Counted from the stretch's first letter, positions 100 to 19,627 are shown. The stretch: DNA of 20,312 nt from a virus (IMGVR_UViG_3300043540_000057:1-20312), one strand, 5' to 3'. The notes: a model not told the origin generated them from the sequence alone. Numbers and translations: made by a program.

Positions 100-100
100 C

Positions 101-1257: not shown

Positions 1258-1279
1258 GGTGGTTCGACGGTGGTGGAGT

Positions 1280-1311: not shown

Positions 1312-1330
1312 TGCGGTGCCGCCGAGGCGG

Positions 1331-1834: not shown

Positions 1835-1845
1835 CTTGGTTCCTT

Positions 1846-2052
1846 TCAGGGCTGGGTGTTCAGCGACGCGAGCGTCGTCGTCGGGGCGCCCGTGTTGGCG
1901 GCGCCGGCGGTCACCCCACTGTGCACATGCGCGTTGACCTGCGCCCGCAGCGCGGCCAGGTCGGCCTGGATCTGGGTGAGCAGCTTGTAGAGCTGCTCCG
2001 CATCGACGTGCTGCGCGAGCGCGGCAGTTCGCTGGGCGACGGATTCGGACAT
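1846..2052 (-). CDS. Small coiled-coil virion protein with a His/Gly motif, 68 aa
   Basis: Residues 5-45 form one amphipathic helix with heptad-like Leu/Ala spacing (QHVDAEQLYKLLTQIQADL), followed by a NAHVHSGVTAGAANTGAPT segment. A His-x-His-x-Gly-Val-Thr-x-Gly stretch followed by Thr-Gly-Ala-Pro is familiar from small phage structural proteins and fibre stems that trimerise, but I cannot name a family. AAGGA lies 9 nt before the ATG. The gene follows the coat gene across a strong hairpin and precedes the 167-residue protein, so it probably forms part of a decoration or head-fibre pair. Role inferred. Confidence 0.62.
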   Translation of the reverse strand: MSESVAQRTAALAQHVDAEQLYKLLTQIQADLAALRAQVNAHVHSGVTAGAANTGAPTTTLASLNTQP

Positions 2053-2074
2053 GGACTGGTTCCTTCTTGAAGAT

Positions 2075-2100
2075 CGCGTCAGGCGCGAGCGCCTGACGCG
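2075..2100 (-). promoter_or_regulatory. Strong hairpin 10 nt after the coat gene
   Basis: CGCGTCAGGC and GCCTGACGCG form a 10-bp perfect stem, extendable to 12 bp through the GCGAGC loop. It begins about 10 nt after the coat stop codon and ends 22 nt before the next start. On the minus strand the bases after the stem (ATCTTCAAG) have no T-run, so it is a poor intrinsic terminator. It more likely protects the 3' end of the coat message or causes partial termination that favours coat over the downstream genes. Confidence 0.6.
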
Positions 2101-2110
2101 AGATCAGTCA

Positions 2111-3169: not shown

Positions 3170-3184
3170 TGGAAGTACCTCGGT

Positions 3185-4078
3185 TTAGGCTGCTCGCGCT
3201 CGGCGCTGCTTGGCCTCGTGATCCCAGAGTTCCTGCGGCGTCATGTCCTCGACCGACTTGACCGTGGCTGCGCCGCCGGAAGGCTTGCTGGTGACTGCCG
3301 CTGCGAGCACCCGTTGCCGGTCGCTCTGGACTTCCGCTGCCGGCCTCTTCTTGTGCTCGGCGTAGAGGTCGAGCATCTGAATGGCGTCGAACGGGTCCGC
3401 GCTTTGCGCAAGCTGCTGGACGGCCGGGGCCTGGACCTTGACCCAGTCCCCGAACGCGGGGCTGTTGATCTCGGTCTTCCAGTTGCGGTGCGCCAGCGTC
3501 ACCAAGTTCTCGTTGAACTTCTTCGCGAGCTCGGTGCTCACCGTCGTCGTACGTTGGGCGACCAGTTGCTCGAGGTCCTCGGCGGAAACTCCCTTTCCGG
3601 CGAGACCCGCAGCGCGGCTCTCCACGTACTCCGAGATGGCATCGCCCCACTCGGGAAAGTCCTTCTTCAACGCGGCCCACTTCTCGGGGTCCTTGGCCGC
3701 ACTGGTGACCTGCGCCTGCGTGGGCTGCGCGGAGGCTTGCGCCTGCCGTGCTCGCTCAAGCTGGGACTGCAGGGCCCCGATGCGGCCGGTCGCTTCCCGG
3801 AGGCCGTTGACCAGTTGCGTGTGCGTTGCCGCGACCTGGTCGAACCTCTCGAGGCGCGCCCGGATGTCCGGATGCAGGCCTGCGTACGGGTCGGCGGGTT
3901 CCTGCGGGGCCGGGGCTTGCGACCCGGCGGGCGTCTCGCCAGCGTTGGCGCTGCTGGGCTGGCCACCCGTCCCTTCAGCCGGCGGAGCGGGCTCCGGCGG
4001 TGTCTGGTTCGTGGCGCCTTGCTCGCGCTCCTTGGCGACGGCGTTCCACTCGTCTTGCAGGTTGACCTCGTCGGCCAT
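3185..4078 (-). CDS. Capsid scaffolding protein
   Basis: A 297-residue acidic protein lying between the portal side and the coat gene. Its N-terminal 80 residues are Pro/Ala/Glu-rich and disordered (repeated PAPPAE-like and PAPQEPADP stretches). Residues about 85-125 make a coiled coil rich in Gln, Arg and Ala. The C-terminus ends in a helical, basic tail with ELWDHEAKQRRARAA, the usual coat-binding end of phage scaffolds. I chose the ATG at 4078 because GAGGAGAGGAA directly precedes it; a longer reading from a TTG at 4096 would add six residues and overlap the previous gene. The protein should fill the procapsid and be released before packaging. Confidence 0.85.
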   Translation of the reverse strand: MADEVNLQDEWNAVAKEREQGATNQTPPEPAPPAEGTGGQPSSANAGETPAGSQAPAPQEPADPYAGLHPDIRARLERFDQVAATHTQLVNGLREATGRIGALQSQLERARQAQASAQPTQAQVTSAAKDPEKWAALKKDFPEWGDAISEYVESRAAGLAGKGVSAEDLEQLVAQRTTTVSTELAKKFNENLVTLAHRNWKTEINSPAFGDWVKVQAPAVQQLAQSADPFDAIQMLDLYAEHKKRPAAEVQSDRQRVLAAAVTSKPSGGAATVKSVEDMTPQELWDHEAKQRRARAA

Positions 4079-4092
4079 TTCCTCTCCTCGCG

Positions 4093-4314
4093 TCAAGAGT
4101 CATCAGCGCCGGGCATTCCCGGGGCTGGGATTTGGGCTCGACGAGCCGCCTCGTTGGGCAGGTCGATGAGCCTCTTCAGCGCGCGGATCTCCCCACGCAG
4201 CGCGTTCGTCTCGGCGTCCGACAGACCGACCAAGTCGTTCTTCTGGCGAAGCCGATCGATCTCTGCCTTGGCCCACGCCAAGATGGCGTGCCACGCGGGG
4301 GCAATCTCGTTCAC
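4093..4314 (-). CDS. Small helical protein ahead of the scaffold, 73 aa
   Basis: A 73-residue, mostly helical protein starting at a GTG: MNEIAPAWHAILAWAKAEID, then a charged heptad-like middle (ETNALRGEIRALKRLIDLP) and a Pro-rich tail. Short proteins of this kind, with an ALRGEIRALKRL-like helix, recur beside portal and scaffold genes in podovirus-like phages, but their job is unknown to me. It is the first gene after the promoter at 4408-4436. No clear Shine-Dalgarno sequence is visible before the GTG, and no in-frame ATG is available, since a TGA stop lies upstream in the same frame. The stop overlaps the alternative TTG start of the scaffold. Confidence 0.65.
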   Translation of the reverse strand: MNEIAPAWHAILAWAKAEIDRLRQKNDLVGLSDAETNALRGEIRALKRLIDLPNEAARRAQIPAPGMPGADDS

Positions 4315-4407
4315 TGGCGGTGTTGGTGACCGGCGCTCGCCTCTGTCGGGCGGTCTGCTCGGTGATCAGGCCGAAAGCGGTGGCGGATCCGCCGGCCGAA
4401 TGATCGA

Positions 4408-4436
4408 ATGATAGGACGGCCCTGCTGTCCTCGCAA
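4408..4436 (-). promoter_or_regulatory. Sigma70-like promoter for the capsid block
   Basis: On the minus strand there is TTGCGA (4431-4436), a 17-nt spacer and TATCAT (4408-4413). The -10 box has one mismatch to consensus and the spacer is ideal. It lies in a 161-nt gap between the microgene ending at 4476 and the GTG at 4314. The spacer holds an imperfect palindrome GGACGGCCCTGCTGTCC at 4414-4430 that also occurs in the early promoter on the plus strand, so this promoter is probably regulated. Transcription would start near 4401. Confidence 0.65.
4414..4430. repeat. GGACAGC palindrome, copy 1 (capsid promoter)
   Basis: Sequence GGACGGCCCTGCTGTCC, a 17-bp near-palindrome that fills the spacer between the -35 and -10 boxes. 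Extended by one base to the left, it matches the copy at 16250-16266 at 15 of 18 positions. The location suggests an operator. Confidence 0.6.
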
Positions 4437-4475
4437 GTCGTGATCGCGGCCGGCGCCTGGCGCGACATCCAGCCT

Positions 4476-4598
4476 TTACCGCCGCCCCCGGCGTGCGATC
4501 AAGTACAGCACGCTGGCGTGCCGGCGTACCAGGCCGCCGCCCCCATTCATCCCGCGGAACAGCAGCCCCGCGAACAGCTTTCCCCGGAACAGTAGCAT
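4476..4598 (-). CDS. 40-residue microgene with LFRG/LFAG repeats
   Basis: An ATG at 4598 opens a 40-codon frame that ends with TAA at 4476. The peptide opens MLLFRGKLFAGLLFRGMNGG and ends in a basic LYLIARRGRR segment, with Leu-Phe-Arg/Ala-Gly units repeated three times. Short phage proteins with GKLFAGKLF-type repeats are familiar from tail regions. The start lies 5 nt after the stop of the 185-residue structural gene, so it can be translated by coupling; the Shine-Dalgarno signal is weak. The regular repeat and position argue that the frame is real. Function unknown; a small tail-associated protein is the likely answer. Confidence 0.5.
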   Translation of the reverse strand: MLLFRGKLFAGLLFRGMNGGGGLVRRHASVLYLIARRGRR

Positions 4599-4603
4599 TG
4601 TCG

Positions 4604-5161
4604 TCAGGCGCCGTTGACCGTCATCGAGACGCGGTTGCCCGACGAATCGAAGTTCGCAGTGACACGCGGGGTGACGCCATCCTGGCCGAAGTACAGCTCC
4701 GTGGTCGTTCCGATGCCCGACGCCTTGCCGGCCAGCGGCGCGAGGATGACGCGTAGGATCTGCTCGGCGGTGAGACCCTGCTCAAGAGCCTGAGTCCACA
4801 CGGCGGACGCGATGTCTGCCGGTGTCGGCGCCGTGGCGCCCACCGCCGTTGTGGTGTACGCGAGGCTGGTCTTGCGCTCGACGTAGACGCCAGTCGCCGG
4901 CACGATAGTCGCGTTCAGGTTGCCGGTGATCGTGTAGTTACCTGCGGTAGGGAACTTGAGCTGGTAGCCATTGATGAAGTCGATCTGGTTGAACGACGCA
5001 CCGCCGCCCAGGTCGAGCGAGCGCCACTGGTGAATCGGCAGGTACAGCATGCCGAGCACCGACGTCTCCAGGGCCCGCAGGGACTGATGGAAGACGACGA
5101 TGTCCGTGATCGAGGCATCGCTGCTGACGATCTTGTTGGCCCAGTCGACCGTAACGGTCAT
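4604..5161 (-). CDS. Virion structural protein, 185 aa
   Basis: Starts MTVTVDWANKIVSSDASITD and contains a conserved-looking core: VFHQSLRALETSVLGMLYLP, a SLDLGGGASFNQIDFINGY strand pair and a KFPTAGNYTITGNLNATIVP stretch. It ends with a helical linker (ADIASAVWTQAL) and beta strands. Proteins with this N-terminus are frequent in phage tail-fibre neighbourhoods and are usually annotated as virion or minor tail proteins. It lies 6 nt after the 493-residue structural gene and ahead of the microgene, in the fibre block. No enzyme motif is seen. The gene is certain; the exact particle role is not. Confidence 0.72.
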   Translation of the reverse strand: MTVTVDWANKIVSSDASITDIVVFHQSLRALETSVLGMLYLPIHQWRSLDLGGGASFNQIDFINGYQLKFPTAGNYTITGNLNATIVPATGVYVERKTSLAYTTTAVGATAPTPADIASAVWTQALEQGLTAEQILRVILAPLAGKASGIGTTTELYFGQDGVTPRVTANFDSSGNRVSMTVNGA

Positions 5162-5166
5162 GGCGC

Positions 5167-6648
5167 TTAGGCGTCAGCAGTGCGAACCGCCGTGCCCGAG
5201 CCGCCGGCCGAGGTCACCGAGAAGTTGCTCTCGAACGGAATGATCGGAGGCGTGCTGGCGTTATTGCGCACCCGGAAGCGCGCGTTGAAGTTGGCGTTGA
5301 ACAGGAACGCCGCGCTGCTGATCGAACCACTGCTTGCGGCGTCATCGATGAATGGGACGAACGCTGGCGCCGCGCTGTAGGCGACCGTCGTAGCCGCCGC
5401 GAGCGTGATGGTGGTGCCCGTCCAGCTCGTGTACGCCAGCTTGTCCCCGTTGACGCGGATGTGGCCGGACTGCGGCGTGTCGGACTTCAGCCCGGGGACG
5501 CTCAGGGTCGTCGCGCCCAGCGCGGCGGTGATCGTGTACTCGTTCTCCAGCAGGTTGCCCGCGCCGTCGTCGCGACCGCACAGGACGTAGTCGCCGACCG
5601 CCAGGCCTGTGACGCTGAGCTGCAGCGAATTCGGCGGAATCTCGGGTGTGCCCGCCGTGGTGATGAGCTGATAGTTCTTCGAGTCAGCTGGAGCGACGCC
5701 GGTGAGCCACCAGCCTTGAGCGACGAACCACTTGCCGCCCGCAAAGCTGCCGAACGGAGCGGCCACGTTCTCAGCGAACCCGCTGACCAGAGCGCGGTAC
5801 TTCCAGCCCGGGATGCCGTTGAGCGTGATCGTCGACGAGTCACTGCAGGCCCACATGAGCGCTTGGTACGCCTGCGCCAGCGTGATGGTGCCGTTGAGCG
5901 TGATCGTGCCCGAGTACGTCTGCGCCCCGCTGCCGTTGCCCAGGTCGTAGCTGCCACCAGTGAAGGACAGCGCGATGGCCGGCGTCGTGCCTCCGGTACC
6001 CCCGATGGCCGAGGCGAAGTAGCTCGCGGCCACCGCCGGCGTGATGGTTGCGGGGTCGACGTTCGCGTCGAGCGCCGTGTTCACGGCGGCGACCTGCTCG
6101 GAACCCGCGCTCAGGTCCACGTCGAAGTGCGAGTAGGTCTGCCCGTACTTACGGCTGAAGACGGTGACGCTGCCGGGCGGAACCGTCGGGTTCGTGTTGC
6201 CAGCGAGCAGCGCGCCGCCGGTCTTTGCCTTCACCAGGATCTGGATGTGGCCGGCGCCCCAGAACGGCGTGATCTTGGCGTCGCCCTGCACGATGTACAT
6301 CGGGCTGGCTGCGACGATGGTGCCGATGGTTTTCAGGCCGGTCCATAGGTCGCTGCTGCCTGTGCCCTGCTCGATGGAGCCGAACTTGAGCCACTGGCTT
6401 GCCGTCTGGTCGATGTTGAAGCCATTGATCAGCGTCAACGCCGAGGGGCGCGCGCTGTTTCGCTTACCGGCCAGCTCGGACGGGTCGGCCTGCAGAATCG
6501 ATAGGACCTCGCCTGCGCTGGGCGACGCGTTGTCTGCCAAGTCCTGCAGCATGGCGTGCAGGTCGAGGACGTTGTAGACCGTGGCAATGCCGCCAACTGA
6601 GCGGATGTTGCCACTGCCGTCGATGGTGAAGTCGGTGTAGATGCTCAT
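5167..6648 (-). CDS. Large beta-rich virion/tail protein, 493 aa
   Basis: N-terminal residues 1-50 hold MSIYTDFTIDGSGNIRSVGG and a helical LDLHAMLQDLADNASPS segment. The rest is a long series of short beta strands rich in Thr, Gly and Ser, with TYSGTITLNGTITLAQAYQ and WKYRALVSGFAENVAAPFG as landmarks. There is no transmembrane segment or enzyme signature. The composition fits a fibre, spike or baseplate-like wall protein. It lies 3 nt after the 132-residue gene and 5 nt before the 185-residue gene, all one transcription unit. I take it to be an exposed tail protein, by composition and neighbours. Confidence 0.7.
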   Translation of the reverse strand: MSIYTDFTIDGSGNIRSVGGIATVYNVLDLHAMLQDLADNASPSAGEVLSILQADPSELAGKRNSARPSALTLINGFNIDQTASQWLKFGSIEQGTGSSDLWTGLKTIGTIVAASPMYIVQGDAKITPFWGAGHIQILVKAKTGGALLAGNTNPTVPPGSVTVFSRKYGQTYSHFDVDLSAGSEQVAAVNTALDANVDPATITPAVAASYFASAIGGTGGTTPAIALSFTGGSYDLGNGSGAQTYSGTITLNGTITLAQAYQALMWACSDSSTITLNGIPGWKYRALVSGFAENVAAPFGSFAGGKWFVAQGWWLTGVAPADSKNYQLITTAGTPEIPPNSLQLSVTGLAVGDYVLCGRDDGAGNLLENEYTITAALGATTLSVPGLKSDTPQSGHIRVNGDKLAYTSWTGTTITLAAATTVAYSAAPAFVPFIDDAASSGSISSAAFLFNANFNARFRVRNNASTPPIIPFESNFSVTSAGGSGTAVRTADA

Positions 6649-6651
6649 GGC

Positions 6652-7050
6652 TTACTCGTCCGATACTTGTGCGACGTAGATCGAGGCGCTGCCGATGACG
6701 GCAGTGGCGAGGGTTTCCCAGGGCTGGTAGTACGGGCTGGCGCTGCCCTTGCGCACGCGGATACGCAGGTCATTGAGGCTCGACCCCGCGGCGTAGGCCG
6801 ATAGTGACAGCGTGACCTGGGCCGCCGCCGCCGTGCCGTTGTAGAAGGTCGTTGTGCCTGCCTGGTCCTCGACCAGGACCGCGCTGCCGACGACCACGTT
6901 GGTCAGGATCAGCGTGAAGGTGCCGATCGGCTCAGTTGGAAGGCGCTGGCGGCCGAACACCCCGGACTTTGTTGAGCGGACGCCCAAGTCGGTCAGGTCC
7001 ATGACGAGTGCTCGGCCTGGGAATGCGCCAATCGGAGCGACGATGGTCAT
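6652..7050 (-). CDS. Virion protein with a small beta domain, 132 aa
   Basis: The sequence has MTIVAPIGAFPGRALVMDLT at its start, then GTFTLILTNVVVGSAVLVED, a beta-sandwich-like pattern seen in small phage structural proteins, followed by RIRVRKGSASPYYQPWETL. The ATG overlaps the stop of the 665-residue fibre gene as ATGA, so the two are translationally coupled. This suggests that it forms part of, or helps assemble, the fibre. AGGGG lies 5 nt before the ATG. No family is assigned with confidence. Confidence 0.68.
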   Translation of the reverse strand: MTIVAPIGAFPGRALVMDLTDLGVRSTKSGVFGRQRLPTEPIGTFTLILTNVVVGSAVLVEDQAGTTTFYNGTAAAAQVTLSLSAYAAGSSLNDLRIRVRKGSASPYYQPWETLATAVIGSASIYVAQVSDE

Positions 7051-9044
7051 GCAACCCCTAGTGCTGGGTCGACAAACAGGCTCTCGGTCACGCCAGAGCG
7101 CGGAGGCCCGACAAATCCAAGGGTCGCCGTGACTTGGCTATTGGCCGCCACGGCATCGGGCGTCGTGATGGCCATGCTCACGGCAGTCATGCTCGCGTAG
7201 TTGCCGGCACCAGCCCATGAAGCTCCACTTGCCGCGGGTAGCGACCTGGAGGTCACCGTCTTGATGGTGCCGTCGACGGCGGACGTATAGCTCACCGTGA
7301 ACGTGATGTCGCCCGCCAGCATCGCCGCCAGCAATGCGCTGCTCAGCATCATGTTGAGCGTGAATGTCTTGACCGCCGCCGTGCCTCGATAGAACACCGA
7401 GAGCGGTGGTGGGTTCAGCGCCATTCCGTTCGAGGCTGCGCTCACGATCCACACCACGCGCTCGGACCAAGCGACGCCATCTGGTAGCGTCGCGGACAAG
7501 GTCGGGTAAGCCGGAAATGCTGCGGAGTCATAGTCGACCACGCCGAGCAAGTTTTCGTACCTGAATGAACCCCCGGCATCGCTTCGCTGATAGATCAGCG
7601 CACACTGGTCGGGCGTCAACCCGTTTGAGCTCTTGTACGCGAGGCCAGCGAACAGCGTAGGTAGCGCAAGACCGGAGCAATCCGATGCCTCGATCAGGAT
7701 CTGGGTAGGCATTCCCGTCCCGGGGAGCGGTTTGATGAGCGGGAAGGCATTGCCGCCAGCGCTCCAACCCGAGAATGAGCAGCCGATCAGGCGGCATGAG
7801 AACCCGGCGACTGGGTACCCAGCCGATAGGTCAACGAAGGCAGGCGGCGTCGCTGCGCCAGAAATGTTCCACAAGAAACGGCACCCTACAAACAGGTGCG
7901 ATTGAAGCGTGTAACTGCCGGCATTAGAAGACGCAAAACTCCCGAACAGCGCCGTCTGCGGATTGACCCGTACAAAATCACAGTCTACCCATGACTGGTA
8001 CCCGCCGTTGAACGTGCCCCCGCCAGCGCCATATGCGGTGGCTTTGAACATCACGCCATCAGTCGGCGCTGCCGCCAGATCTTTGAAGTTGACCCCAACA
8101 ACCCGACCTGAAAGTCCGTTGCTGAATGTCGATGAAACTGGTGACGCCATTGTGAGGATGCGAGCGCCGCCTCCCGCGCTAGGCGTCAGCGCGATGACGA
8201 GTGAGCCCTTCTGTAGGCATCTCAGCTCGCCACCATAGTCGGAGTAGCCGGCGGTGGCATTGCTCACCGAGAACAGCAAGCTCTGCGTCATCGGCATGTT
8301 AATGGTAATGACACCTGGGCTGTCTGTCGTCCACTTCGTAGAAGTGTCGATAACGATGGTGATCGTGTACGCGCCTGAGCGAGCAAGGTTTGCTGCTGAC
8401 GAGAAATTCAATGTCGGGTTGTCGCCGGAACGAACCCACAAAATGTCTGATGCGCCTCGGGCAATCCAGTCTACGTAGGGAGTGGCGCCAAACACAGCGC
8501 CGTAGGCACCAACAGCGATGCTGCTCGCCACCCCCATCGCGGTCGGGGCCGCCATGTACCCGAAACACCCGCCTGTACCACCAACGAACTGCGTCAGGGT
8601 AGGCGTGCCGTCGAAGGTCGTGGCGATGCCGACGTTGGTGTTCGACGCGTAGTTCAGCGTCGCGCTGCCCACACGCATCATGATCTGGCAGGTGCCGGCC
8701 GGCGCCCCGTTCGTCGGGCCGCGCGCATAGACGAGATTGCGCAGTTGCGGGGTGCCGATGGCGACACCAGCAGCGACCGCCGTGGTGGCCGCATTGATGT
8801 TGGCCGCCAGGGCGTCCGCCGCAGCGCCGACGCTGGCCGCACCGATCACGCCGGTCGTGCTGATCGTGACGCCGCAGACCGAGATGGTGCCGGTGGTCGG
8901 CACCGCGCCGAACAGGACGCTGCCGATGCTCGACGCGGTGGCCGCGTCCTTGGTCGACCCGTCGCCCTCTTGCGGCACGCCCCAGGTGGGTGTGGAGCCG
9001 AGTGCGCTGGCGTACGCGCCGTGGTCGCAGTAGAAGTCGGCCAT
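7047..9044 (-). CDS. Tail fibre or spike-like protein, 665 aa
   Basis: The largest gene of the tail block apart from the portal. Residues 1-35 (MADFYCDHGAYASALGSTPT, then WGVPQEGDGS) resemble an N-terminal module that recurs at the head of phage structural proteins. An Ala-rich stretch with ADALAANINAATTAVAAG follows. The central part from about residue 290 has repeated short strands with Cys, Gly and Phe (FVGCRFLWNISG, RLIGCSFSGWSAGG) that fit a parallel beta-helix, as in receptor-binding spikes. The C-terminal 150 residues are a separate beta domain with ERVVWIVSAASNGMALNPPP. No catalytic motif for a depolymerase could be picked out by eye. Probably the host-recognition protein. Confidence 0.68.
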   Translation of the reverse strand: MADFYCDHGAYASALGSTPTWGVPQEGDGSTKDAATASSIGSVLFGAVPTTGTISVCGVTISTTGVIGAASVGAAADALAANINAATTAVAAGVAIGTPQLRNLVYARGPTNGAPAGTCQIMMRVGSATLNYASNTNVGIATTFDGTPTLTQFVGGTGGCFGYMAAPTAMGVASSIAVGAYGAVFGATPYVDWIARGASDILWVRSGDNPTLNFSSAANLARSGAYTITIVIDTSTKWTTDSPGVITINMPMTQSLLFSVSNATAGYSDYGGELRCLQKGSLVIALTPSAGGGARILTMASPVSSTFSNGLSGRVVGVNFKDLAAAPTDGVMFKATAYGAGGGTFNGGYQSWVDCDFVRVNPQTALFGSFASSNAGSYTLQSHLFVGCRFLWNISGAATPPAFVDLSAGYPVAGFSCRLIGCSFSGWSAGGNAFPLIKPLPGTGMPTQILIEASDCSGLALPTLFAGLAYKSSNGLTPDQCALIYQRSDAGGSFRYENLLGVVDYDSAAFPAYPTLSATLPDGVAWSERVVWIVSAASNGMALNPPPLSVFYRGTAAVKTFTLNMMLSSALLAAMLAGDITFTVSYTSAVDGTIKTVTSRSLPAASGASWAGAGNYASMTAVSMAITTPDAVAANSQVTATLGFVGPPRSGVTESLFVDPALGVA

Positions 9045-9045
9045 G

Positions 9046-9426
9046 TCAGGCGAGCCCCATGATGATGTCGTGGCGCGCCTGCGTGAGCACGCCGACGCTG
9101 ACGAGGTAGTTCATGCCGGCGATCAGGTCCGGGTCGCTTGAGTGCACGTTGTCGGCCTTGAGCAGCAGCGAGTAGAAGTCGTCGAGCACCGGGTCGGTCG
9201 CGGACTTCGTGCGCGCGGCGATGCGCTCGGCAGCCTGGAAGCTGCGCAGGAAGTCGAACGCGGCCATCGTCTGCCAGCTCGACGCGGGCGCGGGGGCCGC
9301 CGGATCGGGAATCGCCGTGTAGGTGTAGGCCGGCGTCGGGAACTGGTCCCAGATGATCTCGGTGAGCGAGCTGTACCTGTAGACCTCTTTTCCGGTCGCG
9401 GCATCGGTGACGACGTAGGTGGTCAT
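9046..9426 (-). CDS. Hypothetical protein beside the fibre gene, 126 aa
   Basis: Starts MTTYVVTDAATGKEVYRYSS and continues with LTEIIWDQFPTPAYTYTAIP, a pattern like the short beta module at the start of some tail accessory proteins. Residues 60-126 are helical, with AAFDFLRSFQAAERIAARTK and DFYSLLLKADNVHSSDPDLI. It lies one base ahead of the fibre gene (TGACATG junction) and two bases after the 91-residue gene. A role as a fibre-associated protein or assembly helper fits the position, but I do not recognise the family. Confidence 0.62.
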   Translation of the reverse strand: MTTYVVTDAATGKEVYRYSSLTEIIWDQFPTPAYTYTAIPDPAAPAPASSWQTMAAFDFLRSFQAAERIAARTKSATDPVLDDFYSLLLKADNVHSSDPDLIAGMNYLVSVGVLTQARHDIIMGLA

Positions 9427-9427
9427 C

Positions 9428-9703
9428 TCAGTCCCCCTTCTTCACGCTGCCGCGGAACAGCATGTGCGTCCACGCGAGCCACCAGGGCGCGTCGGTCGGC
9501 ACGTCGGGCTTGAACGACTCCACCTCGATCCGGCCGTCCTCGCACCGGCGACCGACCTCGTAGTGCATCAAGCAGCGCGGCTCGTTGCGACTTTGCCTCT
9601 TGACCCAGTACGGTTCCTGCCCGATCGGCATCCCCGCGCGAACCCAGGCGCGCTTGCGGCGCCAGTATTCGAGCTTGGCCCAGATCCAGCAGTTCGATCG
9701 CAT
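9428..9703 (-). CDS. Hypothetical basic Trp-rich protein, 91 aa
   Basis: A 91-residue protein with eight Trp residues and many Arg/Lys: MRSNCWIWAKLEYWRRKRAW, then MHYEVGRRCEDGRIEVESFK and a PTDAPWWLAWTHMLFRGSVK end. Two Cys lie in the middle (PRCLMHYEVGRRC). Small Trp/Arg-rich proteins of this type are found in phage late operons, but no function is known to me. The ATG is 3 nt after the stop of the coiled-coil gene (TGACCCATG), and the stop nearly touches the next start, so the frame is well set in the operon. Confidence 0.62.
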   Translation of the reverse strand: MRSNCWIWAKLEYWRRKRAWVRAGMPIGQEPYWVKRQSRNEPRCLMHYEVGRRCEDGRIEVESFKPDVPTDAPWWLAWTHMLFRGSVKKGD

Positions 9704-9706
9704 GGG

Positions 9707-10234
9707 TCACCCGATGAGACCGCGCAGCTGGCTCCTCATCGCGTCCAGCGCCTGGGACACTTCCGCGTGCTTGAGCTGCACGTCGCCAAGGTCCTTCGCC
9801 ACGGCCTCGCGCGCGGCGATCGCCGCGGCCTTCTCCTCGTGCAGCTTGGTGAGCTCTTCCTGCGCCGTGGCCACGGCGGCCGCGTGCAGCCGCTGGTGCT
9901 CCGCGAGAAGGGCCGCGTGCTGCTCCGCCGCGGCTTTCTCGATCGCGGTCACCGCATCCCGAGCCCGGGCCACTTCGGCCTCGCCATGCGCGATGGCTTC
10001 CTCCACCACGCGTTGCGCTTCCGCGCGCGCCGCCTCGAGCTCCGTCTGCGCCTGCGCGTGTGCCCTCACCACCTCGTCGTGCGCGGCTCGCGCGCGCTGC
10101 AGCCGAGCCTCCGCCTCGCCGGCGGCTTGCTCGATCGACCCCGCGTTCTCCAACCACGCGGACAGCTCCAAGAGCGACTTGAACTGATTGGCGAGTTTGT
10201 TCAGGGTCGCCGAGCCCTCGAGAAGTTTGCTCAT
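9707..10234 (-). CDS. Coiled-coil protein of the head/tail block, 175 aa
   Basis: Residues 40-165 are one long, unbroken helix rich in Ala, Glu, Gln and Arg, with clear heptads (QTELEAARAEAQRVVEEAIA, EELTKLHEEKAAAIAAREAV). The N-terminus MSKLLEGSATLNKLANQFK is a short amphipathic helix. No Cys, transmembrane segment or enzyme motif is present. AAGGA lies 8 nt before the ATG. It follows the 121-residue protein by 10 nt. It could be an internal head protein, a tail rod or a fibre-bundle protein; the sequence supports only an extended coiled coil. Confidence 0.66.
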   Translation of the reverse strand: MSKLLEGSATLNKLANQFKSLLELSAWLENAGSIEQAAGEAEARLQRARAAHDEVVRAHAQAQTELEAARAEAQRVVEEAIAHGEAEVARARDAVTAIEKAAAEQHAALLAEHQRLHAAAVATAQEELTKLHEEKAAAIAAREAVAKDLGDVQLKHAEVSQALDAMRSQLRGLIG

Positions 10235-10244
10235 CTATCCGTCC

Positions 10245-10610
10245 TTACAGAAGCGAGTTGATCTTGCGACCCAGAACCGTCACGTTCAACGAGGTCGTGC
10301 CGTCGCCGCTTGTGACATGCGGCCGTACAAACATCGGCGCCTCATTGGCCTGCTTGACCGTCGCCGAGCTGTACGTCATCGCGTTGCCGTTCATGTCGGA
10401 CAGTACCGACCAGTTCGCGCCGTCGTTTGACCCCTCGATCGAGATCGAACCCCCGGCGCCGAATGTGCCGGAGATCTGGAAGCACCTGTCGGCCCAGTCG
10501 GACTGCTGGAACGGCTCACCGGTGTCGCCGTTGGCGAGCGGCTGCCAAGTGCCGAGGCGCAGGGAGTTGGTCGGACCCTGCATCGTCACCGCGCACTTCT
10601 GAACTGCCAT
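10245..10610 (-). CDS. Small beta-sandwich virion protein, 121 aa
   Basis: The protein starts MAVQKCAVTMQGPTNSLRLG and has a QISGTFGAGGSISIEGSNDG strand pair followed by ANWSVLSDMNGNAMTYSSA. This looks like a small jelly-roll or sandwich fold in which an expected Gly-Ser-Asn-Asp-Gly turn precedes a Trp. It is encoded directly after the portal, with GAGGT 7 nt before the ATG. Short proteins of this type occur in phage particles and are usually called structural or decoration proteins. The family is not certain. There is no sign of an enzyme. Confidence 0.66.
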   Translation of the reverse strand: MAVQKCAVTMQGPTNSLRLGTWQPLANGDTGEPFQQSDWADRCFQISGTFGAGGSISIEGSNDGANWSVLSDMNGNAMTYSSATVKQANEAPMFVRPHVTSGDGTTSLNVTVLGRKINSLL

Positions 10611-10619
10611 GTTGTTACC

Positions 10620-12917
10620 TCACTGGTTTGGAATTGCGGCCGGGGCCCGGGCGGCTGCCGCGGCGCTGTGGTCCGCCGCGCGACCGTGCGCGTCGGCAAT
10701 GATCTTGGTGACCGCGAGCTCGCGCTTCGAGTTGCTGACGATCGCCGCCTGCGCGAGCTGGGCCTTGACCTGCTCGATGGAGATCTTCAGGGCCGAGGCG
10801 GTCTTGAGCACCTCGACCTCGTACTGCAGCTGCAGTTCCTGCATCCGCAGCTGGCGGTCCTGGACGGCGGCCTGCTCGCGCGACTGAACCTCGACGGCCT
10901 GCCCCTGCGCGATGGCTTGCGCCTCCTGCACCTTGGCCTGCGCCGAGATCTGCGCGGCCTGCACGCGGGGGTCGGGCGGCGCGGGCTGCTGCTGCTTCTG
11001 CTCGATCTGGGCGTCGGACAGCATGATGTCCTTCGGATCGATGTAGTTGGCCTGCAGCCCCTTCTCGAAGAGCTTCTTCGGGTCGATGAACATGCTGTAG
11101 ATCGGGTTCGCCCCGGCCGCCAACAGGTTCAAGTAGCCCTGGTTCTGGATGTCGCGCACCACCAGCGCCGACGAGCCGCGGGCGTCGATCTGGAAGTCGC
11201 CCTTGATCTCGTCGTCGTCGCTGTACGCCATGTTGTAGTCGTAGTAGCGACGGATGTGCGGCTTGGTGACGTAGTCGTCGAACTGCTTGACGAGCCGGCG
11301 CAGCACGACGTTGGCGCTGTTCATCAGCAGCTGCATGCCGCCGACGGTCTGCGGGGCCGAGCCTTGCTGGCCCTGCGCCATCATCGGTACGGACGTCTCC
11401 TGGTCCGCGAGCTTCTCGGACAGGTCGAGCACGGCCGCCAGTTGCTCCTGGTGATTGGCGAACTCGACGGAGTAGAAGACCCGCGCCGGGTCGACGTTCT
11501 CGTCGTTGAGGTACCAGAACTTGAACGGGCGCAAGTTCCACTGGCGGTCGGCCGGCGTGACGGCGCGCTGGTTGACCAGGATCTGCGGACCGGCGGTAAG
11601 GCCGTTGTTGTCCATCATCTGGCGCCACGCTGCGTTCGTCACCGACTGCTGCGCGAGCATCAGGTACGGCACGCCGTAGCCGCGGGGCGATCCGAAGACC
11701 TTCTCCCAGGGGTAGAAGTCGTACGGGAGCGCGCCATCCTCGAGGGGGTTCAGGTAGGCGCGCACGACCGTGTCGTTGATCATCTCGACGCAGCCGCTGA
11801 CGCTCGTCAGCGGGTCGTCTTCCGAAGCGCCCGGCGGCAGGTCGACGCCGGCGGCGACCAGGTCTTCGCTCTTCAGCTCGCCCCAGTAGTACCAGTGGTA
11901 GTAGGTCCTGTCACGCTCGGCGCCGTTCTTGTCCGCGTCCTGTCGTTGGAGCTCGAAGTTGAGCGCGACGTTGTCCTTCGGGCCCTCGACGAGAACCTTG
12001 CGCAGCTGGTCCAGCAGGTAGCCCGGCTGCTTCGCCAAGTCGCGCACCCTCTTCTCGGTCTTGCGCTCGAGCTCGAAGATGCCCTGGCCGTCCTGCACGT
12101 CATCGCCGCACTCGGGGTCTTCCCAGACCATCCGCGGGTCGATGCTGAACGAGGCCGGGTTGATCTCCTCGACGATCTCGAGGACGTAGGCCGAAGCGCC
12201 GCTGGCATCCTTGCGCTCACGCCAGGCCTTGCGCGTGCGCTTCGTGACGATCGGACCCTTGATCACGCCGGTCCCCATGACCGCGGCGTTGTGGATCATC
12301 TTGCGGCATTCCGCGTTGAAGTCGCACTCGACGAGCTGGTCGTCGATCTTGTCCTGCATCGCCTTGGCCGCGCGCTTCGCGACCTCCTGGGCCATCTGGG
12401 CGACCTGGCTCTTGAGCACCGGCTGGCCCTGCGAGGGGTCGGTCGTGACGTTGCCGTCGGCGTCCAAGAGCACCGGCTGGCCGGTGGCGGGGTCGATGAG
12501 CTTGCCATCGTCGTCGAGCGCGCGGGCCCCTTCCGGGTCCGGTGTGGGCTGAATGCCCCAGTTGCGGTCGTCGGTCGGCAGCATGATGTCCGCCAGACGC
12601 GCTTCCGCCGCGTTCGCCTTCTGCCGGGTGATGCCCACGAACACCGTTGACCTGGTGGGTGCGGCGTGGCCGACGGTCACCGGGTAGCCCTGCTGGACTG
12701 AGTCCATCATGGACGACGCCATCTTCGTGGCGGCGTCGCGCATGTGGTAGTTGTCGAGGTCCTTCGCGACGCGCTTGTCCCAGCCGGTCGCGGAGCGCGC
12801 ACGGATCCACTCGTCGCGCAGCTTCGACAGCGTCGACCCGAAAGCCTGCAGACGGTCCTCCTGGTCGAGGACAGCTTTGCTGTCTTGCGTGTCCGAAACT
12901 TGACTGAGTTTGTTCAT
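10620..12917 (-). CDS. Portal protein
   Basis: A 765-residue protein of the large podovirus-type portal class, which forms the dodecameric ring through which DNA is packaged and ejected. The N-terminal part contains FVGITRQKANAAEARLADIM and a PTDDRNWGIQPTPDPEG segment. The middle has FNAECRKMIHNAAVMGTGVI, and then SFSIDPRMVWEDPECGD and a crown region with LPYDFYPWEKVFGSPRGYG. Residues about 650-745 form a long Gln/Ala/Glu-rich coiled coil that probably makes the barrel. It is read after the large terminase across an 89-nt gap and before the small virion genes. The Shine-Dalgarno signal is weak. Codons about 12-16, encoding DSKAV, coincide with a 17-bp palindrome. Confidence 0.88.
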   Translation of the reverse strand: MNKLSQVSDTQDSKAVLDQEDRLQAFGSTLSKLRDEWIRARSATGWDKRVAKDLDNYHMRDAATKMASSMMDSVQQGYPVTVGHAAPTRSTVFVGITRQKANAAEARLADIMLPTDDRNWGIQPTPDPEGARALDDDGKLIDPATGQPVLLDADGNVTTDPSQGQPVLKSQVAQMAQEVAKRAAKAMQDKIDDQLVECDFNAECRKMIHNAAVMGTGVIKGPIVTKRTRKAWRERKDASGASAYVLEIVEEINPASFSIDPRMVWEDPECGDDVQDGQGIFELERKTEKRVRDLAKQPGYLLDQLRKVLVEGPKDNVALNFELQRQDADKNGAERDRTYYHWYYWGELKSEDLVAAGVDLPPGASEDDPLTSVSGCVEMINDTVVRAYLNPLEDGALPYDFYPWEKVFGSPRGYGVPYLMLAQQSVTNAAWRQMMDNNGLTAGPQILVNQRAVTPADRQWNLRPFKFWYLNDENVDPARVFYSVEFANHQEQLAAVLDLSEKLADQETSVPMMAQGQQGSAPQTVGGMQLLMNSANVVLRRLVKQFDDYVTKPHIRRYYDYNMAYSDDDEIKGDFQIDARGSSALVVRDIQNQGYLNLLAAGANPIYSMFIDPKKLFEKGLQANYIDPKDIMLSDAQIEQKQQQPAPPDPRVQAAQISAQAKVQEAQAIAQGQAVEVQSREQAAVQDRQLRMQELQLQYEVEVLKTASALKISIEQVKAQLAQAAIVSNSKRELAVTKIIADAHGRAADHSAAAAARAPAAIPNQ
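12869..12885. repeat. GGACAGC palindrome, copy 2 (inside portal 5' end)
   Basis: Sequence GGACAGCTTTGCTGTCT, with perfect 6-bp arms GACAGC/GCTGTC around TTT. It lies 33 bp inside the portal gene. The arms are identical to those at 16251-16265. No convincing promoter boxes flank it. Confidence 0.5.
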
Positions 12918-16240: not shown

Positions 16241-16270
16241 TTGACGTTAGGACAGCGATGCTGTCATGAT
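16241..16270 (+). promoter_or_regulatory. Candidate early promoter with extended -10
   Basis: TTGACG (16241-16246, 5 of 6), an 18-nt spacer and CATGAT (16265-16270, 4 of 6) with TGT just before the -10 box, which gives an extended -10 element. It lies about 50 nt before the first plus-strand start codon. A 17-bp palindrome fills the spacer, as in the capsid promoter. Confidence 0.6.
16250..16266. repeat. GGACAGC palindrome, copy 3 (early promoter)
   Basis: Sequence GGACAGCGATGCTGTCA with perfect 6-bp arms GACAGC/GCTGTC. It overlaps the spacer and first -10 bases of the early promoter, a typical place for a repressor site. Confidence 0.65.
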
Positions 16271-16472: not shown

Positions 16473-16829
16473 ATGCACGTCCTCCTCAACATCGGCCTCA
16501 CGAGCGGGGCCCGCCGCCTCGGCACCGGCACCGTAATGCGCGAGGTTATCGGCGCGTTCGGCGCCGCCTCGTTCACGTTCCATCAATCCGACACCGAGCC
16601 GACGTGCGTGGCCGCCGTCGGCGCCAAGAGCGACAGCGAGCTCCAGGGCCGCGTCTCCCGTCTCGCGCAGCTGCTCGACCAGGACTGCATCGCGGTCTAC
16701 CTGCCTGAGCGCGAGCACGGCGTCCTGGTCGGCCCGCGCGCCGCCGCCTGGGGGCCCTTCGACCCCGCGTTCTTCCTCATGCCCGACGGCTCGCGGCTGG
16801 CCGACCGCCTGATGCCTGCGGCCGCCTGA
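16473..16829 (+). CDS. Hypothetical protein, 118 aa, paralogue of 19208-19627
   Basis: Starts MHVLLNIGLTSGARRLGTGT and ends in a compact segment with QDCIAVYLPEREHGVLVGPR followed by AAAWGPFDPAFFLMPDGSRL. The 139-residue protein at 19208 has a similar order: an LNI-x-L start, a Leu-Asp-Cys-Val core, a GxVFGPxAA motif and an LPDGxxL end. They look like diverged copies of one family. It is predicted to be cytoplasmic with an alpha/beta fold. Its stop codon TGA forms the first bases of the RNA hairpin copy 1. Function unknown; early module position. Confidence 0.65.
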   Translation: MHVLLNIGLTSGARRLGTGTVMREVIGAFGAASFTFHQSDTEPTCVAAVGAKSDSELQGRVSRLAQLLDQDCIAVYLPEREHGVLVGPRAAAWGPFDPAFFLMPDGSRLADRLMPAAA

Positions 16830-16874
16830 CCCCAGCCGCTTGCCCTGGTGCGCCAGGGCTCGCGAGTGGCGTCA
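16827..16874 (+). promoter_or_regulatory. Repeated structured RNA element, copy 1
   Basis: TGAC pairs with GTCA, CCA with TGG, CGC with GCG and GCCCTGG with CCAGGGC, closing a TGCG loop. Between these helices lie symmetric 1x1, 2x2 and 2x2 internal loops. The TGA is also the stop codon of the 118-residue gene. The next ATG is 30 nt after the element. Confidence 0.72.
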
Positions 16875-16903
16875 TCCCGATAGCCCAGAAAGGAGCCTTT
16901 GAA

Positions 16904-17152
16904 ATGCAACGCGTTCGAGTCATCGTGACCCTCTTGCACCTGCCCCGCGTCCTCGCCGAGCACGCGGTCGGCCGAGACCATACCGTGGGCCACCGCATGG
17001 TCGTCGGCATCCTGCTGATGACCCTCGGCGCGATCGTGACCCGGGGCGGCGACCTGCTGCCGGCGGCCCACCTCTTCTTCGACGTGACCGGGCCGCTGCT
17101 TCACGCGATCGGCGTCACCCCGTTCGCCGAATACCTCGGCGACATCCGCTGA
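16904..17152 (+). CDS. Small membrane protein of the early module, 82 aa
   Basis: AGGAG lies 9 nt before the ATG. The N-terminal 30 residues are basic and partly helical (MQRVRVIVTLLHLPRVLAEH). One hydrophobic segment runs from about 32 to 46 (MVVGILLMTLGAIVT) and a second, weaker one from 51 to 70. It probably sits in the inner membrane. No holin signature or known family is visible. It is flanked on both sides by hairpin elements, so it forms a cassette of its own. A superinfection or host-membrane role is conceivable but unsupported. Confidence 0.58.
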   Translation: MQRVRVIVTLLHLPRVLAEHAVGRDHTVGHRMVVGILLMTLGAIVTRGGDLLPAAHLFFDVTGPLLHAIGVTPFAEYLGDIR

Positions 17153-17197
17153 CCCCAGCCGCTTGCCCTGGTGCGCCAGGGCTTGCGGGTGCAGTCC
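17150..17197 (+). promoter_or_regulatory. Repeated structured RNA element, copy 2
   Basis: Nearly identical to copy 1 over the first 40 nt, again beginning at the stop codon of the upstream gene. The inner GCCCTGG/CCAGGGC stem and CGC/GCG helix are kept; the outer helix is weaker (CCA opposite TGC, TGAC opposite GTCC). A GGTGC/GCACC hairpin (17188-17202) could form instead of the outer part. The next ATG is 24 nt on. Confidence 0.7.
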
Positions 17198-17220
17198 GCA
17201 CCAGCCAACTGGAGAACATC

Positions 17221-17661
17221 ATGCTCAAAGTCTCGTCTGGAGTCGGCCAGCTTTGCACCGTGGCCATGACTACCACCACCGCCGCTGCTGTTGCGCAGCA
17301 ACTCGCCGCCGAAGGCCGTTCGTTCTACTGTGAACCGCGGCCCGACGACCAGAGCCGCATCAGCGTCGACGCCGAGCACGCCGGCCGCGTTCGAGAGCTG
17401 GCCGCGAGCCTTCCGGGGGCCCCCGAGCCGCTCGGCTGGCACCTGTTCTACATCGAGGTTGACGACCCGGACGGCACGCACGCGTTCATCGTCTCCGCCG
17501 ACTCAGATAGCGAGACCAAGGCGCGCGAACTCGCCGAGGCCGCTGCGCTCGACCACTGCGGCGCTGACTTCGCGGAGGACGTGTCGGTCTCGCACTGCCA
17601 CAAGCTCTGCATGACCGACGTGGACGTGTTCGAGAGCATCGGGACGCTGGCCGAGAACTGA
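17221..17661 (+). CDS. Hypothetical early-module protein, 146 aa
   Basis: GGAG lies 6 nt before the ATG at 17221, which sets the start; an internal ATG at 17266 is less likely. The product opens MLKVSSGVGQLCTVAMTTTT, then has an AAVAQQLAAEGRSFYCEPRP helix-strand unit, a WHLFYIEVDDPDGTHAFIVS strand pair and a helical part with AEAAALDHCGADFAED followed by SHCHKLCMTDVD. Several Cys/His near the end (HC, CHKLC) might bind metal. No family recognised. It stands as a separate cassette after hairpin copy 2. Confidence 0.6.
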   Translation: MLKVSSGVGQLCTVAMTTTTAAAVAQQLAAEGRSFYCEPRPDDQSRISVDAEHAGRVRELAASLPGAPEPLGWHLFYIEVDDPDGTHAFIVSADSDSETKARELAEAAALDHCGADFAEDVSVSHCHKLCMTDVDVFESIGTLAEN

Positions 17662-17691
17662 TCCCCTGACCCGAAACCGAGAAAGAACCCC

Positions 17692-17931
17692 ATGACACCG
17701 TCCACCAGACCCGTCACCCGCATCACGTCGGCCTACGTCCGCGACAAAGGTCTGCGGCCCGTCGTCGCGACCATCACCGGCTCGATCCTCGAACTGCGCG
17801 CCAAGGGCCTGCGCAGCCGCGAGACGCTCGACCTCGCGTCGTGCTACGGCCTTGCGGTCAAGCAGCGTGTAGCCCGCGAGAAGGCCGAGCGCAAGGCAGC
17901 GCGGGCCGCAAAAGGCAAGCGGGGGCCTTGA
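17692..17931 (+). CDS. Small basic hypothetical protein, 79 aa
   Basis: The protein begins MTPSTRPVTRITSAYVRDKG and carries a PVVATITGSILELRAKGLRS segment, then a helical LDLASCYGLAVKQRVAREKA and a strongly basic tail (ERKAARAAKGKRGP). Similar short proteins with a conserved middle and a Lys/Arg/Ala tail occur in phages and plasmids of GC-rich bacteria, but their function is unknown to me. The basic tail suggests nucleic acid contact. The ribosome binding site is weak (GAGAAAG). The 3' end overlaps the -35 box of a candidate promoter for the next gene. Confidence 0.6.
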   Translation: MTPSTRPVTRITSAYVRDKGLRPVVATITGSILELRAKGLRSRETLDLASCYGLAVKQRVAREKAERKAARAAKGKRGP

Positions 17932-17957
17932 ACTTCACGAGAGGACAGTCATATTGT
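17928..17957 (+). promoter_or_regulatory. Weak candidate promoter before the DUF932 gene
   Basis: TTGAAC (17928-17933), an 18-nt spacer and TATTGT (17952-17957) match the consensus at 4 of 6 each. A palindrome with 9-bp arms (17939-17963) overlaps the spacer and -10 box. A shifted -10, CATATT, with a 16-nt spacer is equally good. Confidence 0.35.
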
Positions 17958-17959
17958 CC
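17943..17959. repeat. GGACAGC palindrome, copy 4
   Basis: Sequence GGACAGTCATATTGTCC. The arms extend outwards to 9 bp, GAGAGGACA/TGTCCTCTC (17939-17963), around a 7-nt centre. It starts just after the 79-residue gene and ends 5 nt before RNA element copy 3. Confidence 0.6.
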
Positions 17960-17964
17960 TCTCA

Positions 17965-18004
17965 TGACCCCAGCGGCAAGCCCGAGGGCTTGCCAGTGGT
18001 GTCA
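17965..18004 (+). promoter_or_regulatory. Repeated structured RNA element, copy 3
   Basis: TGAC/GTCA, CCA/TGG and an 8-bp GGCAAGCC/GGCTTGCC stem. The inner helix has changed on both sides relative to copies 1 and 2 and remains paired, and the inner TT/TC loop has become AA/TT pairs. Here TGA is not a stop codon of the upstream gene, so these bases belong to the element. The next ATG is 28 nt on. Confidence 0.72.
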
Positions 18005-18031
18005 TCCCGACCCACGTAACCGGAGTTATCC

Positions 18032-19114
18032 ATGAACGAACTGTCCCTCCACCGCCAGTGGGCCTCACGCCCCGCCGACGAACGCTTTTCGAGCCTGACC
18101 GAGATGAGCTCGAAGCTCGAAGCCCAGCGCGCGATCTCCCGGGCTCGCACCATCTCCTCGCGCTCGCTGGTGGCCGTCCCCGACCCAGACCACCGCGGGC
18201 TGACGCTCCAGACCTACGACGGCACGAAGTCCGCGCCGACGCACTGGGCGTTCGGCCAGCTGGCCTCGCTCGTCGAAGCGCCCGCGCGCTACCTGCGCAA
18301 CTTGCCGGCCGAACTGGCCGCCGACTGCATCAACTACGGGCTGCACGTCAAGCGCGGACCCGAAGATGTCGGCATCCTCACCGTTGACGGCGACGCGCCG
18401 CAACTGCGCGCCGCCACTGGCCCGAACTACGGCCGTATCTGGAACGCGGACATCGTGCGCCACCTGATGGACCGCTTCGGCGACGGGGTCGCCGGTCAGT
18501 GGCGCGTGCCCGGCGTCTTCGGCCGGCGCGTCGAGGTGAACCGCGATACCACCACGTTGTTCGCCGGGGACCGGGACCTGTTCATCTTCCTCGTTGACGA
18601 GGACAAGCGCGTGCCGGTGCGCACGCGCAGGGACGCCGACAGCGAGGGCATGCTCTACCGCGGTTTCATGGTCAGCAACAGCGAGGTGGGCTCGGGCACG
18701 CTGAGCGTTCGATTCTTCGCCTACGACGGTATCTGCGGCAACCGGATCATTTGGGGCGCGCAGGAGCTGGGCCGGCTGGACATCCGCCACACCGCCAGCG
18801 CGCCGGACAAGTTCCTCGGCCAGCTGCAGCCGATGCTGGAGTCCTACGTCGAGAGCAGCACCGCGTCGCTGGTCGACAAGGTCACGCTGGCGCAACAGAC
18901 GCGCGTGGACGACCTGGAGAAGTTCCTCGGCACTCGCTTCGGGCCGCGCGTGGCCGAGCGCATCGTCGACGCCCACCAGCTCGACGAGCACCGGCCGATG
19001 GAAACCATCTGGGACGTGGTGACCGGCGTCACCGCCTACGCACGCTCGATCCCGCACCAAGGTGACCGCGTCGAGGTGGAGGAGGTGGCCGGCAAGATCC
19101 TCGAAGCTGCGTGA
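18032..19114 (+). CDS. DUF932-family phage/plasmid protein, 360 aa
   Basis: The protein fits the DUF932 (phage/plasmid-like TIGR03299) family. It has an N-terminal basic region and then a conserved THWAFGQLASLVEAPARYLR segment, a QLRAATGPNYGRIWNADIVR core and RDTTTLFAGDRDLFIFLVDE. MLYRGFMVSNSEVGSGTLSV leads into FFAYDGICGNRIIWGAQELG, a hallmark order (Ser-Asn-Ser-Glu-Val-Gly...Cys-Gly-Asn) of the family. The C-terminal third is helical. Such proteins are common in phages and plasmids; a DNA-related role is often assumed, but no activity is established to my knowledge. GGAG lies 7 nt before the ATG. A palindrome and RNA element copy 3 precede it. Confidence 0.85.
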   Translation: MNELSLHRQWASRPADERFSSLTEMSSKLEAQRAISRARTISSRSLVAVPDPDHRGLTLQTYDGTKSAPTHWAFGQLASLVEAPARYLRNLPAELAADCINYGLHVKRGPEDVGILTVDGDAPQLRAATGPNYGRIWNADIVRHLMDRFGDGVAGQWRVPGVFGRRVEVNRDTTTLFAGDRDLFIFLVDEDKRVPVRTRRDADSEGMLYRGFMVSNSEVGSGTLSVRFFAYDGICGNRIIWGAQELGRLDIRHTASAPDKFLGQLQPMLESYVESSTASLVDKVTLAQQTRVDDLEKFLGTRFGPRVAERIVDAHQLDEHRPMETIWDVVTGVTAYARSIPHQGDRVEVEEVAGKILEAA

Positions 19115-19121
19115 CCGGAGG

Positions 19122-19138
19122 GGACAGCTTGTCTGTCC
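19122..19138. repeat. GGACAGC palindrome, copy 5
   Basis: Sequence GGACAGCTTGTCTGTCC; arms GGGACAG/CTGTCCC are perfect over 7 bp (19121-19139). It lies 7 nt after the DUF932 stop codon and runs straight into RNA element copy 4. Confidence 0.6.
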
Positions 19139-19184
19139 CGTCACCAGCCGCCTGCCCTGCGCGCAGGGCTCGCGGGTGGCGATG
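19139..19184 (+). promoter_or_regulatory. Repeated structured RNA element, copy 4
   Basis: The outer helix is CGTC/GATG (one G-U pair) instead of TGAC/GTCA, followed by a 1x1 loop, CCA/TGG, a G-G mismatch, CCGC/GCGG, a 2x2 loop and GCCCTG/CAGGGC with a CGCG loop. The outer arms changed together, which is covariation. An alternative GGTGGC/GCCACC stem followed by TTTT (19175-19195) would exclude the outer part. The ATG at 19208 is 24 nt on. Confidence 0.7.
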
Positions 19185-19195
19185 TGCCACCTTTT
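19175..19195 (+). terminator. Possible weak terminator or switch hairpin
   Basis: GGTGGC (19175-19180) and GCCACC (19186-19191) form a 6-bp stem followed by TTTT. The T-run is short. The left arm is shared with RNA element copy 4, so the two structures exclude each other. Confidence 0.3.
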
Positions 19196-19207: not shown

Positions 19208-19627
19208 ATGCTGACCCTGAACATCACCCTCCAGCGGCCCAACGGCCGCGAAGCGAACCCTATCGAGGCCGTTGGGCGCCTTGTCCCCCGGCTCGATGAG
19301 GTGCGCGACTTCCGCATCGTCACGAACGAAGAGGACGAACGCGTCCTGGTCCTCGCTCTCGACTACTTGGAGTCGATCCGGCCCGAGGACCTGCAGACCG
19401 ACCTCGACTGCGTGCGCCTCGCGGTCCACGGCGACGGGTACGAGACCGGCGCCGTGTTCGGGCCTGATGCCGCGCACAACGCGTTCCAGGACGACGAGTT
19501 CTACCTGCCAGACGGCCGCACTCTGCGCGCGTGGCGCGACGAAGCCTGCCGCATGTCGGAGCTCCTCTCCGGGAACCACACCTTCACGCCGGTCCGCCGC
19601 CGGGTCGTCGTGCCGAACGTCTTCTGA
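19208..19627 (+). CDS. Hypothetical protein, 139 aa, paralogue of 16473-16829
   Basis: I start it at the ATG at 19208, not at a GTG at 19184, because MLTLNITLQRPNGR then lines up with the MHVLLNIGLTSGAR start of the 118-residue protein, and because the distance to the RNA element matches the other copies. The core has ALDYLESIRPEDLQTDLDCV, then GAVFGPDAAHNAFQDDEFYL and PDGRTL, which resemble the end of the paralogue, followed by an extra tail RAWRDEACRMSELL and RRRVVVPNVF. The protein is acidic and predicted cytoplasmic. No Shine-Dalgarno sequence is visible. Function unknown. Confidence 0.62.
   Translation: MLTLNITLQRPNGREANPIEAVGRLVPRLDEVRDFRIVTNEEDERVLVLALDYLESIRPEDLQTDLDCVRLAVHGDGYETGAVFGPDAAHNAFQDDEFYLPDGRTLRAWRDEACRMSELLSGNHTFTPVRRRVVVPNVF

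Follow-up and report, generated by a model that had tools for sequence, protein, structure and literature searches.

Four early gene junctions of this viral genome contain copies of a hairpin which is a new RNA motif, absent from the public RNA family library. It is almost certainly an intercistronic element of the sense-strand mRNA. The best overall explanation, to which we give a probability of about one half on sequence evidence, is that it may be a cis-acting RNA marking gene junctions in polycistronic phage early mRNAs. We have traced the family to at least 80 distinct copies, all in contigs of uncultured phages: They are found in the DUF932 relatives of this genome, in a group of phages with a SprT protease and in several unrelated phages.

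The window (the whole stretch of DNA that we have analyzed) is an IMG/VR virus fragment of 20,312 bases. Its minus strand contains the terminase, portal and major head protein genes; the nearest relative of the terminase is that of Rhizobium phage RHph_N2 (58%). The plus strand contains small early genes, beginning at 16473, and all window features described below are in this strand. The covariance model R2 places the four copies at 16826–16875 (56.9 bits, E 7e-17), 17149–17198 (53.2 bits, E 1e-15), 17964–18005 (48.3 bits, E 5e-14) and 19138–19185 (52.1 bits, E 3e-15), where they had been predicted; these E-values are rough, and the scores are partly so by construction, since the four copies were included in the training set of R2. 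They are followed by start codons at 16904, 17221, 18032 and 19208.

Copy 1 comes after a gene of unknown function (phrog_11722, 16473–16829, E 1.7e-18), whose TGA (16827–16829) is inside the outer helix of the hairpin. Between copies 1 and 2 there is an 82 amino acid ORF with no match in family searches (16904–17152), whose TGA (17150–17152) is inside the outer helix of copy 2; a 146 amino acid ORF follows (17221–17661). Copies 3 and 4 are found immediately 5' and 3' of a DUF932-like gene (phrog_1362, 18032–19114). In these two copies the stop codon is separated from the element by another small hairpin. The one ahead of copy 3 has 9 bp (GAGAGGACA/TGTCCTCTC, 17939–17963) and the one ahead of copy 4 has 7 bp (GGGACAG/CTGTCCC, 19121–19139); both adjoin the element on its 5' side, the second having two bases in common with copy 4, in its outer helix. 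The ORF after copy 4 (139 amino acids, 19208–19627) had been listed with a GTG start at 19184. This GTG sits at the end of the copy 4 hairpin, and the ATG at 19208 is preferred as the likely start. The junctions preceding 17692 (start of a 79 amino acid ORF, 17692–17931) and 19640 contain no element, which is therefore not present on every junction.

Some minor features of this region may be added. The two small hairpins have a common heart, GGACAG/TGTCC. DUF932-like genes have elements on both sides not only in the window, also in L076, L077, L079 and L133. The phrog_11722 gene (...NIGLT...), also present in L070, L187 and L186, is homologous to genes of Erythrobacter phage L02 and of Achromobacter Axy phages, which do not carry the element.

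The structure has been derived from 67 distinct parsed copies and a 47-sequence alignment. An outer helix of 3–6 bp is followed by a Y·C site (replaced by a C-G pair in copies of the AGTGG type), by CA/TG, which is invariant across the family, by a purine·G mismatch (GG in 44 cases, AG in 3) and by a C·A site (43 cases; C·G in 2, U-A in 2). Then come a 3-bp helix which covaries freely, two sites which are either paired or mostly pyrimidine-pyrimidine, and an inner stem based on GCC/GGC, with a variable length. The family has, then, a constant core, (Y)CAGC/AGUG(C/G) with its purine-G mismatch and C·A, next to helices which change. Two points of the architecture in the original prediction need correction. 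Its CCA/TGG helix is not a general feature, as copy 2 has TGC and only CA/TG is kept family-wide. Its 2x2 loop forms pairs in copy 3 (AA/TT), as it does in numerous homologues, and is otherwise mostly pyrimidine-pyrimidine. The helix changes it pointed out, from TGAC/GTCA to CGTC/GATG in the outer helix and from CGC/GCG to GGC/GCC in the inner ones, can both be read in the sequence.

The covariation score is 0.498, compared with 0.141 ± 0.012 for shuffled controls (0 of 500 as high), and it drops to 0.05–0.14 for slid structures. These tests ignore shared ancestry; the changes are found repeatedly, both among unrelated phages and inside single genomes. Both sides change in 17 of 19 pairs. Compensatory changes are above both controls, as in a conserved structured RNA. 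The inner helices contain 23 G·U and a single A·C; with G·U so far above A·C, it is the coding-strand RNA that folds, into a helix predicted from the sequence to be irregular and about 20 bp long. A known family is ruled out, in agreement with the original reading: In Rfam 15 the window has no match at the gathering threshold, the early-region elements have none at E<=10, and those in five other loci have none at E<=1. We should also note a sub-threshold match to the Twister-sister ribozyme in L079 (3583–3671, minus strand; 25.2 bits, gathering 34, E 0.3), which is probably due to chance.

The element has a defined position between genes. Among 96 contexts, which include six spurious ones, a stop codon is found 6–10 nt 5' of CAGC in 71 cases, which places it in the outer helix; in 64, the start codon, accompanied by a ribosome site, comes 30–35 nt past AGTG. 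Its usual distance from AGTG is about 33 nt. The inclusion of the stop codon had been noticed in copies 1 and 2, where it is correct, but it is a general feature; copies 3 and 4 are exceptions. The median distance from the end of the helix to the start codon is 23 nt, and the end of the hairpin would fall just outside the footprint of an initiating ribosome. The original reading, a covarying hairpin at a set distance before start codons, is supported.

No promoter or terminator match is found at the window copies; the only promoter match of the early region, sigma70-like, is at its head (16241–16270; 1 found, 0.2 expected). The copy tails have no consistent U tract, and neither they nor the terminator search agree with an intrinsic terminator, a G+C hairpin followed by a U run. 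The predicted accessibility of the ribosome site is 0.52 with the element intact, 0.55 with a ribosome on the stop codon and 0.51 with the element deleted in silico. Since it is practically the same with or without the element, a riboswitch which masks or sequesters the ribosome site is not supported. Together, the lack of promoters and terminators and the unchanged accessibility argue against simple roles in transcription or occlusion. A programmed translational bypass of the T4 gene 60 type, with a stop codon and a hairpin, has been dropped because a separate start codon and ribosome site are available at most junctions, and no conservation is seen in the upstream codon.

The first search for other members used a permissive DNA pattern for the core against viral contigs. 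Most matches were due to chance in coding sequence, and the rest included copies with the same layout before starts in other contigs. A second pattern, with no pairing required in the 3-bp helix, returned eight contigs; four of them have the complete hairpin, formed by different base pairs (L040, where it appears twice, L068, L070 and L072). Model R1, built on 16 copies, found more copies among relatives of the DUF932 gene, several per phage. Relatives of the SprT-like protease gene, which is placed 3' of one copy, gave 80 additional loci, with 65 R1 matches, 64 of them on the coding strand, even if only one member of this group was included in the training of R1. A structural descriptor, tuned on copies already in hand, has 164 matches in 3.18 Mb of redundant loci and none in the reversed-sequence control. 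These two results, 164 to 0 and 64 of 65, rule out chance GC-rich hairpins. The many further copies precede unrelated genes, in agreement with what a covariance model search of related phages had been expected to find.

When 46 whole records were searched with R2, 21 carriers were clear and no match came from the non-carriers, nine isolates among them. Three further isolates were also negative, so that none of 12 has the element, and a blastn search for isolated phages with two consensus queries did not find it. In bacterial genome contigs, a pattern scan gave only chance-like matches. The search of 300 genomes of the Variovorax order with R2 and the pattern, scoring a few candidates per genome, gave four weak matches, none of them convincing: L351 and L352 are repetitive or unlike the element, while L350 and L353 align without the AGTG core or the helix. 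Elements occur in phages with few genes in common, and three close SprT relatives (G032, G033 and G035) do not have them: The element is therefore not essential to the SprT gene set. An all-against-all BLAST of 6,996 ORFs from 18 records found no protein family in every carrier, which rules out a common phage-encoded RNA-binding protein as a visible family. Any trans factor would therefore be a host protein or RNase, or else too diverged or too short to be seen.

The genes next to the elements are shuffled. L013, L021, L027, L033 and L034 have different genes between a small ORF (the MFH peptide, which was not found in L013) and the SprT gene, and elements are found at nearly every seam of the region. 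The same or a near-identical hairpin adjoins different genes, on either side, which indicates recombination on both sides of the element. At one of these positions the genes overlap in L261, a relative without the motif. The MFH peptide ORF is conserved, codes for 20 amino acids (MFH[VI]PAHKNTxxPPAQFTPK) and is found 3' of the first element of the array in L021, L027, L033, L034 and L209; for example, in reversed L021 it starts 32 nt after the AGTG at 1028. It is possibly a leader peptide or a tiny effector. L040 has a longer homologue of 104 amino acids (MFHIPPHKATTNPP...).

Many copies also present an alternative pairing. An NCAC complementary to GTGN is found past the outer helix in 48 of 85 copies (3.4 expected from shuffled downstream sequence). 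Five-base matches are found in 12 of 39, compared with 3.9 with swapped partners; 0 of 2000 swaps were as high, a test which overstates independence, as the copies are related. The variants change on both sides: AGTGC/GCACT, GGTGC/GCACC, GGTGG/CCACC and AGTGG/CCACT. In copy 2 of the window, GGTGC (17188–17192) may pair with GCACC (17198–17202), and in copy 4, GGTGG (19175–19179) with a CCACC downstream. Whole sub-types, such as the AATCCGTTTAAA type and most AGTGG copies, do not have this pairing, which makes it an accessory feature. The result might be a competing hairpin, or a pseudoknot with the outer-helix strand as its loop. The alternative pairing with AGTGC/GCACT, the general tie to the stop codon and the shuffled junction genes go beyond what the original prediction described.

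Several known systems resemble this element. The RNase III sites of T7 are irregular hairpins, about 20 bp long and with mismatches inside, which stand at junctions of the early polycistronic mRNA, with a stop codon on the 5' side and a ribosome site on the 3' side. Sites R0.3 to R1.3 are similar to our element in size, mismatches and position between stop and ribosome site; here, on the other hand, the phages all keep one specific 8-base core, and the helix incorporates the stop codon. R2 has no match at E<=5 in T7 1–12000, which contains its RNase III sites. The attC sites of integrons are single-strand DNA sites for IntI and carry R-box sequences. They also present a hairpin past the stop codon of each cassette gene, a structure conserved above the sequence and cassette-like shuffling. 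We consider this as an analogy only: R-box sequences are not seen here and the G·U bias indicates RNA.

Other systems come from the literature. The promoter early stem-loops (PeSL) of T4-type phages (Arbiol 2010, Comeau 2014, as cited in PMC4503421) are repeated junction elements where modules of small genes shuffle. Our element is similar in being found at the seams of shuffled small genes. It differs from the promoter plus terminator-type stem-loop unit of PeSL, which is not found at the window copies, and also in a fold kept by covariation and a fixed geometry from stop to start. No significant R2 match is found in T4 1–30000. Cluster K mycobacteriophages have start-associated sequences (SAS), in which 13 bp placed at the start codon are conserved (5'-GGGATAGGAGCCC), and ESAS, whose arms have a 17 bp consensus (PMC3203893). 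The likeness, multiple copies close to the translation starts of non-structural genes, is limited to the layout, as predicted. Direct reading of the sequences from hairpin to start does not find the 13-bp SAS; the arms of ESAS follow a consensus sequence, while ours form a covarying helix with an internal-loop core, and the best R2 match in a TM4 segment (the early half) has E 0.51, which is not significant.

There is perhaps an even chance that the element is a processing or protein recognition site which separates cistrons, a reading based on its invariant core, a helix length of two turns, its location with a stop codon on one side and a start codon on the other, and the absence of other functions. 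The folded core would be recognized specifically, either by an endonuclease (RNase III, for example) or by another RNA-binding protein. Cutting or protecting the transcript at this core would allow each small gene to be expressed and to decay independently of its neighbours. On reaching the end of the upstream gene, a ribosome would open the lower part of the helix, so folding would be sensitive to upstream translation. Since identical seams lie between many genes, they might double as joints for the exchange of gene cassettes. RNase III is the leading named candidate, purely by analogy with T7, and we consider it rather unlikely to be the specific factor. Several facts stand against the recognition or processing reading: The invariant core exceeds what RNase III is known to need (to our knowledge it does not require a sequence-invariant core), R2 has no match in the first 12 kb of T7, the carriers have no protein in common, and G032, G033 and G035 manage without the element. 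A different use of the core is possible, if on the unlikely side: One RNA-binding protein, from host or phage, might bind the CAGC/AGUG internal loop in every copy and co-regulate, up or down, the translation of all genes in the array. The core sequence is constant while all surrounding helices vary, and the spacing to the start codon is similar across copies. Besides, a purine-purine mismatch beside C·A is the type of wide-groove site which is read by arginine-rich proteins. Nevertheless, no phage protein is common to the carriers, and ribosome-site accessibility is not altered in our predictions, so repression would need a bound protein reaching 10–20 nt downstream.

The element might also be a two-state switch or pseudoknot which depends on translation: AGTGC would leave the hairpin to pair with GCACT, and a ribosome on the upstream stop codon would select the fold. 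The excess of complementary tetramers and five-base matches, the last base changing along with its partner and the overlap of the stop codon with the helix all agree with this. We find it distinctly unlikely, as the pairing is absent from whole sub-types, the predicted accessibilities hardly differ (0.52 and 0.55, p=0.07) and the swap test overstates the independence of related copies. It is quite improbable that the element is primarily a DNA seam for recombination or mobility, with the hairpin as a by-product of cassette exchange. The gene content from MFH to SprT does differ in every related phage with a hairpin kept at each seam, and near-identical hairpins appear beside different genes. 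However, copies within one genome differ and still pair, where homologous recombination would favour identical sequences; the G·U bias points to sense RNA, recombination does not need a fixed spacing to stop and start codons, and no recombinase is linked to the copies. GC-rich intergenic hairpins, and the palindromic AGTGCN6GCACT in DNA, might suggest a transcription terminator, a promoter-associated repeat or a double-stranded DNA operator. This is very improbable indeed: The copies lack promoter and terminator matches and a consistent U tract, and half-sites covary within a genome (GGTGC/GCACC beside GGTGG/CCACC), unlike a fixed operator.

Beyond the reading as a recognition or processing site, it is conceivable, with little probability, that this phage-specific RNA family is a standard gene seam which senses upstream translation up to the stop codon, sets the fate of both cistrons and allows plug-in exchange of cassettes. 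If so, the two mutually exclusive pairings of AGTGC would do the sensing, and the element would be an RNA-level counterpart of the integron cassette. The accessory regions of phages contain many small genes which are exchanged rapidly, candidates for anti-defence or host takeover, whose expression logic is mostly unknown. A recognizable, strand-specific RNA seam which marks cassette boundaries would help to annotate them, and the covariance model finds such seams in unannotated contigs. How shuffled genes keep their proper expression becomes directly testable with a reporter. Finally, we have found a 268 amino acid ORF between two elements in L040 (6302–7108, minus strand), which consists mostly of VYGNAQVYGDA-type tandem repeats and is beta-helix-like.
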